From contig NZ_CP088251.1 in the NCBI RefSeq assembly GCF_021117405.1, forward strand, positions 3,018,501 through 3,082,500: a stretch of 64,000 nt of DNA. Direction: 5' to 3'. The position numbers were made by a program, and so were the translations under genes. The notes beneath the pieces were generated by a model. It was not told the origin of the DNA. It was given only the letters and a program-made list of their open reading frames with translations, and searched no databases. This DNA is from Frateuria edaphi. GTDB lineage: Bacteria; Pseudomonadota; Gammaproteobacteria; Xanthomonadales; Rhodanobacteraceae. How positions within the stretch are numbered: position 1 is the first letter of the stretch; the number at the start of each line of letters is the position of its first letter. This document shows, piece by piece, positions 25,402 through 27,340 of this stretch.

Positions 25402-26475
25402 TTACGGCCCTTCGCTAGGCCCCCTGGTAAGCTGGTATAGCTTATTCAGGTGTTCGACGCCCATCGCTGTACGGGCTGCCTCTAAATAACCCTTACCGGT
25501 CGCTTTATCCAGCGCCTCTTGAATGCTTAGATTATTAAGGATATCCCCGAGGGAACTGTATCGATGAGTTTGTGATTCTCTGTTCTTTAGCTCCGATACC
25601 TGAGACCTTAGTTGGTTAATCGTTTGCTGTGAGGATGCGTCCTGCCTTTTTAGCCCCTCGAGCGAGCTCAGTAATCGGTCTATTTCTTCCAGGTTGCGCG
25701 CGTTTTCGCTCTGGGCGGCGTGCAGCTCAGTTTTATGGCGGTCGATTGTTTCCTTTAAACCTCGAACGAAGGAACCCATTTCGTCCGCATTTCCGCATAG
25801 TCTGTTAAATATGGTCAGGAAGTAAGCAACTATTTTATCGTCGCTAAAGTTGGGGTAGCGGATCGAATGGTCGATCTCGCTCCATCCTTCCTCGAAAATT
25901 GTCCTAACTTGCAACTCGGCAACGATCGGCCTGTTCAGGGGTCTTGTTTCAAAAACGTAATGAATCGACCGGTAGCCCTGTTTATGTTCTTGAATATCGA
26001 TTCCCGCAGACGCATAGGCCTCGGATAGCTCGCTTGGATCGCCAGTTCGGATATACGCCACTGGTTTCTCTTTCAATTCGAGAATTCCCACCAAATCTCG
26101 ATGAATGGTGGACCAGTCTGCCTTATAAAGGTGGAGCGCGCGGATTCCTACCAGATCAGTTACGGCAGTGTGGTAGTTTGAGGCATCTATATTGTCATAC
26201 TTCGACGCCTTACTTGCCCGCTTCCTGATAATCTTTTCGATTAGGTGGTCCGGATTTTTTACTCGCCAGCGGACCGAGTGGACTGCCGGAATTTTTTGGA
26301 TGGCGGAAGCCAGAAATTGCGCATTCTCCATCAGATTTGGGGCCTGCTGTATGAATGCGTCCCTTATTTTTAAGAGCTGGTCCCAGAGGCAATCGGCAGA
26401 CTCCCATTCCGGAGTAGAGATATTATGATTGGAAAGGAAATCTTGAAGGCTCACGGCTTTTACCTCATTTTGCAT
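25402..26475 (-). CDS. RelA/SpoT-domain nucleotide pyrophosphokinase with coiled coil
   Basis: A 357-residue protein. Residues about 45-215 are a synthetase domain with the conserved RVKNPDHLIEKIIRK, D107-x-x-G110-x-R112 (DLVGIR), K165-x-GYRS-x-H172, E187-LQVRT and W198-x-E200-x-x-H203 residues, so catalysis is probably intact. Members transfer pyrophosphate from ATP to GDP/GTP, to other nucleotides, or to tRNA (small alarmone synthetases and toxSAS toxins). No hydrolase domain is seen. A coiled coil spans about 235-300 and a short C-terminal domain follows. Codons are AT-rich. It lies 70 bp after the TIGR02391 gene and is probably co-transcribed with it. Confidence 0.88.
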   Translation of the reverse strand: MQNEVKAVSLQDFLSNHNISTPEWESADCLWDQLLKIRDAFIQQAPNLMENAQFLASAIQKIPAVHSVRWRVKNPDHLIEKIIRKRASKASKYDNIDASNYHTAVTDLVGIRALHLYKADWSTIHRDLVGILELKEKPVAYIRTGDPSELSEAYASAGIDIQEHKQGYRSIHYVFETRPLNRPIVAELQVRTIFEEGWSEIDHSIRYPNFSDDKIVAYFLTIFNRLCGNADEMGSFVRGLKETIDRHKTELHAAQSENARNLEEIDRLLSSLEGLKRQDASSQQTINQLRSQVSELKNRESQTHRYSSLGDILNNLSIQEALDKATGKGYLEAARTAMGVEHLNKLYQLTRGPSEGP

Positions 26476-26545
26476 GCTTACCCTGACGGATGAGTGCCGA
26501 CCCTAAAACAAAGACAGCAACATAAAAGTGGCAAAGAACAGAAGG

Positions 26546-27340
26546 CTAAGCGTTAGTACGATCGAGCGAATTTGCCAACATACTCAGGAACGAAAGATAT
26601 TCGACGGCATTTTGCGGGTGGTCTTCAACCAATCCATGTGCGCGAGGATTCCGGAGCGCCAGCATCGCGCCAGCAAACAGAAACATCATCCCTTGTTGCT
26701 CGCTCTTTTCACTATCATTCGTTTGGTCGTTGTATTTTAAAATTGGAGCCTTCGGACTAAACACAAGCTGCATGAGTTCCGTGCCGCTAAGGTCTTGGCG
26801 CATGCTCCGCATTTTTACCAGCATATCGAGAACTTTACAGCCAGCCTCAACTGCCTCCGCGTAGTGCCCGTTTTGAAAGAGCTTTGTACATGCGCGCGCT
26901 AGTTCAGGGTGTAGATTGAGATCCTCAAAGGCCCGCTTCGCGCGAGTTGCCGGAGTCTCTCCCCCATCGGCGAGCTTTTCCTGAAAAAGTTCGATGATGG
27001 TGCGGAGATTCGAAAGCTCTCGCTGCTTACTTTCAGCGACGCTCTCGATCACATCCGAAAGAGGAGTGGCATACATCATGTTGTAGCCAGCGCGGTCGAG
27101 TGAGCTTGAAGCGAACCGATGGCACTCAATAGTCCCGTGACCGAACACCTCCGAAATTGTGTCAGCGAGTTTAGTTTCAATGGCTTCTATGCGAGGGTCG
27201 CTGCGCTGTTTGAGAGACCTCGGATCAAAGTCTTCAAGATCTTTGATGCGCCGCTCCAGCTTTGGTATGGCGGATCGCATTTGTTCGGCCGTTAGATTTG
27301 CTGGCTGGGGGGCCGGCGCCGCACTTTTTCTTGCTGCCAT
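26546..27340 (-). CDS. TIGR02391 (Ymh) family HEPN-like protein
   Basis: A 264-residue protein. The N-terminal half is charged and helical (LTAEQMRSAIPKLERRIKDLEDFD). From about residue 143 the sequence LHPELARACTKLFQNGHYAEAVEAGCKVLDMLVK, then GTELMQLVFSPKAPILKYN and MLALRNPRAHG matches TIGR02391. R230-N-P-R-A-H235 is the Rx4H motif of HEPN ribonucleases. Families of this type occur in phage-defence and toxin systems. AT-rich codons separate it from the chromosome around it. It is first in the minus-strand pair with the RelA/SpoT gene. Confidence 0.85.
   Translation of the reverse strand: MAARKSAAPAPQPANLTAEQMRSAIPKLERRIKDLEDFDPRSLKQRSDPRIEAIETKLADTISEVFGHGTIECHRFASSSLDRAGYNMMYATPLSDVIESVAESKQRELSNLRTIIELFQEKLADGGETPATRAKRAFEDLNLHPELARACTKLFQNGHYAEAVEAGCKVLDMLVKMRSMRQDLSGTELMQLVFSPKAPILKYNDQTNDSEKSEQQGMMFLFAGAMLALRNPRAHGLVEDHPQNAVEYLSFLSMLANSLDRTNA

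Follow-up and report, generated by a model that had tools for sequence, protein, structure and literature searches.

Neighbouring HEPN and RelA/SpoT-type genes at a variable site of Frateuria edaphi: likely separate anti-phage genes, not a recurring pair

In a 64-kb stretch (the window) of the single-contig 3.77-Mb genome of Frateuria edaphi, an AT-rich block carries three minus-strand genes, encoding a TIGR02391/Hypoth_Ymh protein with a HEPN domain, a RelA/SpoT-type synthetase, and a DUF4145 protein (Table 1). The block is flanked by a conserved TSCPD-domain gene on one side and, on the other, by a gene (23230-23988) that we take to be TetR-like from reading its sequence. We found that the HEPN and synthetase genes, adjacent as they are, do not form a recurring system in the loci searched. 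The explanation we favour, and consider fairly probable, is that they are independent anti-phage genes which have come to share the block at a variable site beside the TSCPD gene. The best lead of the analysis comes from the HEPN protein, whose N-terminal domain is exchangeable.

We collected 28 loci with relatives of the TIGR02391 protein (24 from species genomes and four from viral contigs, some matching in the HEPN part only) and 48 viral-contig loci with relatives of the synthetase, and searched all loci with both proteins by tblastn. Both genes together were found in none of the 28 and none of the 48 loci, both flanks of at least 1 kb being present in 20 and 41 of them, respectively. Among whole genomes, and counting that of F. 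edaphi itself each time, the synthetase is matched in 4 of the 147 relatives and the TIGR02391 protein in 11; of the 398 genomes of the phylum, 17 match the synthetase and 11 the TIGR02391 protein. The only other close synthetase match is in G352 (45% identity, E 3e-83), while the TIGR02391 matches in other genomes cover the HEPN part only, except in G180 and G483, where only the N-terminal part matches. Neither protein matched in the five other genomes of the genus that were searched, one of them 86% complete. Three genomes (G483, G237, and G015) match both queries, always on different contigs, and of 14 TIGR02391-bearing genomes (L002-L014 and L016, representing 14 of the 24 loci) one has a synthetase match, a weak one (E 2e-10). 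We found no paper in the open-licence literature joining HEPN, RelA SpoT, and abortive infection.

A preliminary description of this DNA had proposed that the two genes form a two-part toxin or abortive-infection unit, and had named beforehand the lack of a recurring neighbourhood as one of the results that would speak against it. No recurring neighbourhood was seen in the 28 and 48 loci, and we rejected the two-part unit on this ground. The domain identities and the conflict or defence flavour of the genes are supported by the PADLOC and Pfam matches, by the defence-model genes that relatives carry at this site, and by the viral and prophage spread of synthetase relatives. As the pair does not recur in any genome or virus searched, each gene is likely a separate anti-phage gene. 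Operon-like neighbours at a variable, defence-rich site should thus be treated with caution and not be read as one system.

The layout agrees with the preliminary description. The coordinates, confirmed from the open reading frames (ORFs), place the genes side by side on the minus strand with a gap of 70 bp, the TIGR02391 gene being upstream. The DUF4145 gene, on the same strand, does not figure in that description. From 24001 to 28000, successive 1-kb bins have a GC content of 0.53, 0.51, 0.50, and 0.58, compared with 0.63-0.73 in the remaining window, except for the last 3 kb (23S rRNA); the AT-richness of the block is therefore not a trend of the whole region. The hairpin repeats and the terminator said to bound the block are present as inverted repeats and a terminator-like stem (Table 1). 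A Shine-Dalgarno-like AGGG directly precedes the ATG of the synthetase, which therefore can be translated independently.

For residues 1-128 of the HEPN protein, Pfam has no hit at E≤1. In PADLOC, residues 24-125 match PDC-S35 (profile positions 6-101), as do 39 of 49 subfamily members. A search with residues 14-128 only yielded 86 proteins, the query included, of which 81 carry PF09509, three PF10137 (TIR), one GGDEF, and one no domain. Three more TIR fusions were found on plasmid AP026971.1 and in genomes G180 and G483, giving six fusions with a CAP12/Pycsar-type TIR and one with GGDEF, all seven confirmed by Pfam. Over the N-terminal domain, identity is 57, 48, 44, 34, 24, and 35% for the TIR fusions (the last over 66 residues) and 41% for the GGDEF fusion. 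A phylum-wide search with a profile of this domain gave matches in 7 of 398 genomes, three of them clear (own, G180, and G483); the other four (E 4e-4 to 8e-4, short stretches) were dropped. Searches of viral contigs retrieved no relative of the TIR fusion P0248 or of the N-terminal domain, and three viral loci found with the GGDEF fusion match its GGDEF part only. The N-terminal domain alone retrieved one plasmid record.

Given the seven fusions, the N-terminal domain is a genuine unit that can move between proteins and has no fixed link with the synthetase. Since it is also fused to TIR and GGDEF, the HEPN protein probably combines sensor and effector in one chain as a member of a modular family, in no need of a synthetase partner. 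This architecture is of an already known kind, as HEPN fusions and swapping of N-terminal domains are described in the accessible passages of a 2013 survey (PMC3710099). More tentatively, it is possible that the N-terminal ∼128 residues are the common sensor of an unnamed modular immunity family with at least three killing or signalling outputs, a HEPN RNase, a CAP12/Pycsar-type TIR, and a GGDEF nucleotide cyclase; the GGDEF form would yield a second messenger instead of killing directly. If the domain does sense infection in all these proteins, finding its trigger a single time would account for the RNase, TIR, and GGDEF forms alike. Beside these fusions, two viral loci (L158, 4737-5474, and L159, 4719-5474) carry a GGDEF domain ∼50% identical to that of P0250 with a different N-terminus, and plasmid hits H42-H46 are 35-40% identical to P0248 over 91-99% of its length.

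In the C-terminal part of the protein, the matches to PF09509 (Hypoth_Ymh; E 1.2e-30, 106.3 bits, cut-off 25) and TIGR02391 (E 3.9e-22, 78.7 bits, cut-off 39.45) are both above the curated cut-offs. The Rx4H motif named in the preliminary description is present, with R230 kept in 48 and H235 in all 49 aligned subfamily members. The protein thus belongs with the Ymh/TIGR02391 HEPN proteins, and RNA cleavage is predicted. The HEPN fold was kept out of the evidence, as Foldseek gave no match for the model at E≤0.001 and the VIA-align rows were middling, with a weak resemblance to SO_3166-SO_3165 (5yep_B). In its accessible passages, the 2013 survey presents Ymh as a HEPN family with a conserved motif, found alone, fused to pMORC, AbiJ-NTD1, or AbiTii, and also in operons with restriction-modification (PMC3710099). 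No paper on TIGR02391 or Hypoth Ymh was found in the open-licence literature. In a Paraburkholderia locus (L003, 2303-2923), the TIGR02391 relative is closely preceded by the end of a gene whose DUF4145/Swt1-HEPN match is below the cut-off; the block of the window likewise has a DUF4145 gene. In G015 (L164, 2232-10335), a TIGR02391-domain gene lies in a defence island beside GajA, GajB, an AbiJ_NTD4 gene, and a caspase/helicase gene.

The synthetase matches Pfam RelA_SpoT with E 8.8e-15, and Pfam lists no hydrolase domain in it at E≤1. The motifs reported previously are all kept: D107-L-V-G-I-R112, G167-Y-R-S-I-H172, E187-L-Q-V-R-T192, and W198-x-E200-x-x-H203. Having the domain and the active-site residues and no hydrolase domain, it has the sequence hallmarks of a small alarmone synthetase (RSH/SAS), with (p)ppGpp, (pp)pApp, or pyrophosphorylated tRNA as candidate products; among solved structures, the small (p)ppGpp synthetases RelP and RelQ come closest in both sequence and fold. 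The long helix after the core is modelled with a predicted local distance difference test score of 61-85 up to residue 300. No YxxY is present after residue 205, and one of 56 relatives has it in the C-terminal part. Relatives of the synthetase occur in 48 viral contigs, where no partner gene accompanies them constantly, and the relative in L029, 49% identical to the synthetase, matches phrog_2211. Among the four ORFs on each side of 52 synthetase loci (ORFs shorter than 50 amino acids or hidden by overlap left out), no family occurs more than 10 times, and no constant adjacent antitoxin gene was seen; judged by reading the sequences, the commonest neighbours are methyltransferase and tail genes. 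In all three of L026, L027, and L028, a shorter synthetase relative (225-252 amino acids) is located directly 3' of a gene that reads as a ParA-like ATPase.

The TSCPD gene is found in 38 of 41 genomes, including that of F. edaphi, and we compared its downstream side in 12 relatives. The block of the window aligns in none of the 12, repeat stretches of ∼40-60 bp aside, while an acyltransferase-like ORF (21559-22557; named by reading) is kept on the far side in G003 and G002 of the same genus. Hand-picked ORFs were scanned with Pfam (10 ORFs from six loci) and PADLOC (10 ORFs from five loci and seven from four others); those of L121, L124, and L126 were left out. Among these ORFs, and with no control site as a baseline, defence-model matches were found in 5 of the 12 relatives: a CAP12-type TIR (PDC-S35) and an FRG gene (PDC-S15) in G003, a Drt8-type reverse transcriptase in G005, SIR2_2 and a DNA methylase in G017, an N-terminal piece of HsdM in G015, and a TIR-effector match in G008, where the sole Pfam hit, a deoxyribosyltransferase, stays below the cut-off. 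ORFs picked from L119, L120, L127, and L128 have weak PADLOC matches or none, and L121 and L126 lack an AT-rich insert. The site is thus variable and rich in defence-model genes, and it offers a ready place for finding more defence genes in this bacterial family.

Several other explanations have to be weighed against independent genes. If the pair were a toxin or abortive-infection unit of two components, the product or modifying activity of the synthetase would control the HEPN RNase, or both would act jointly. The shared strand, the short gap with no promoter-like match on that strand, and the conflict association of the HEPN family agree with this, but the absence of recurrence, the many other contexts in which each family occurs, and the N-terminal domain that the HEPN protein has of its own, found also with other effectors, make it very unlikely. 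We give hardly any credence to a toxin-antitoxin pair in the style of HepT-MntA, where the synthetase, having a nucleotidyltransferase fold, would modify and inactivate the HEPN toxin. The gene neighbourhood, the superfamily analogy, and the resemblance to 5yep_B point in this direction; however, the pair does not recur, and the Rx4HxY motif carries a tyrosine that is missing from RNPRAHGLV. As nothing beyond the neighbourhood supports the analogy, it was rejected.

The synthetase might also have arrived with the block as a (p)ppGpp synthetase of the ordinary stress response and have no role in defence, as its kinship to RelP and RelQ would suggest. Still, the five same-genus genomes gave no hit to it, its relatives are found in viral contigs, several of them near genes that read as P2-type tail and DNA methyltransferase genes, and the RelP/RelQ chains of 209-237 amino acids leave no room for the long helix; we consider this explanation unlikely. 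It is rather improbable that the two genes are decaying cargo left behind by a former mobile element. No other member of the genus searched carries either gene, and inverted repeats are scattered through the block, but both reading frames are intact and all motif residues are kept.

Among known systems, the HEPN protein resembles component B of PD-Lambda-3 (PADLOC PDLC03987) in the C-terminal HEPN domain and in length, and PDLC03987 matches all 49 subfamily members. However, only residues 127-262 match (profile 126-263 of 270), the N-terminal domain being left unmatched, and therefore the protein is not a full-length component B. In the accessible parts of two sources, PD-Lambda-3 is counted among the abortive infection systems (PMC13190303) and is listed with a PD-(D/E)XK nuclease (PMC10952713). 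No such nuclease was found among the block genes, while an HSDR_N gene lies just upstream in the viral L077 and L078; PADLOC named no other PD-Lambda-3 component for the three genes. The PADLOC candidate PDC-S35 shares the N-terminal domain, with a C-terminus of TIR type, judging from the matching G003 protein, in place of HEPN; the open-licence literature yielded no mention of PDC-S35 or PDC-S33. Similarly, the AbiJ N-terminal-domain families comprise exchangeable N-termini that precede TIR, HEPN (Ymh among them), and further enzymes of biological conflict (PMC3710099). Unlike the domain described here, they are not fused to GGDEF in the accessible passages of that survey, and Pfam gives no AbiJ_NTD match to the HEPN protein (P0002) at E≤1, AbiJ_NTD4 being the model confirmed to be in the library.

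As for the synthetase, CapRel and toxSAS are likewise prophage-borne pyrophosphokinases of the RelA/SpoT fold and plausible single-gene defences, according to the accessible parts of PMC9712102 and PMC11782079. By contrast with the C-terminal pseudo-zinc-finger antitoxin of CapRel, which contains YxxY, the C-terminal part here has no YxxY, so CapRel-like self-inhibition was rejected, and the catalytic core is closer to RelQ/RelP. Fold and active site are like those of RelP/RelQ, although the synthetase has extra N-terminal helices, a helix of ∼90 residues after the core, and relatives in viral contigs.

If the two are independent anti-phage genes, as we favour, the N-terminal domain of the HEPN protein would recognise an infection signal and release the Rx4H RNase of this single-chain sensor-effector, and the cutting of RNA would stall the infected cell. 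The synthetase, in turn, would be a defence enzyme of prophage type that acts as a single gene, with the variable helical tail receiving the trigger; its RelP/RelQ-like active site would then produce an alarmone-type nucleotide that stops growth. An alternative acceptor may be tRNA.

Table 1. Positions of the block genes, their domains, and bordering elements in the window
Feature	Position	Strand	Remark
TIGR02391/Hypoth_Ymh protein, 264 amino acids	26546..27340	-	exchangeable N-terminal domain and HEPN domain
N-terminal domain, residues 1-128	26957..27340	-	elsewhere fused to PF10137 TIR and GGDEF
HEPN (PF09509) domain, residues 142-258	26567..26917	-	
Rx4H motif RNPRAH (R230-H235)	26636..26653	-	
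Stand-alone RelA/SpoT-type synthetase, 357 amino acids	25402..26475	-	
RelA_SpoT synthetase domain, residues 71-209	25849..26265	-	active-site residues intact
Long predicted helix, residues 214-304	25564..25836	-	coiled-coil-like, poorly conserved
DUF4145 (HEPN-superfamily) gene	24431..25135	-	same AT-rich block; Pfam; weak PADLOC PD-T7-4
TSCPD-domain gene	27456..28190	-	borders variable site, kept in relatives
Inverted repeat, GGGGTCAGGTTCA type	25215..25285	.	between DUF4145 gene and synthetase
Inverted repeat, GGGGTCAGGTTCA type	24228..24283	.	far side of block
Terminator-like stem	27407..27432	-	3' of TSCPD gene, block edge

The block contains six terminator-like stems, compared with 4.1 ± 2.0 in shuffles; therefore, individual long stems are notable, while their number is not. 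Exact copies of GGGGTCAGGTTCA occur nine times in the genome: four in the block, four at 2.491-2.498 Mb, and one at 2.036 Mb. The inverted repeats of this type span 24048-25368 in the window, and the second cluster (L162) is followed by genes matching the PADLOC candidates PDC-M30B/M41B. The PD-T7-4 match of the DUF4145 gene has E 9e-6, and the motif region of its protein is GNDGAH, without an arginine. In three viral contigs, HSDR_N-domain genes that belong to a single family lie next to a relative of one of the two genes: TIGR02391 in L077 (4793-5950) and L078 (4792-5949), and the synthetase in L064 (7147-8232). Elsewhere in the window, the AT-richer end (60875-63981) is a minus-strand pair of 5S and 23S rRNA genes, and 28446-29060 encodes a lysine/alanine-repeat protein (KKAAPKKAAA), presumably histone-H1-like.
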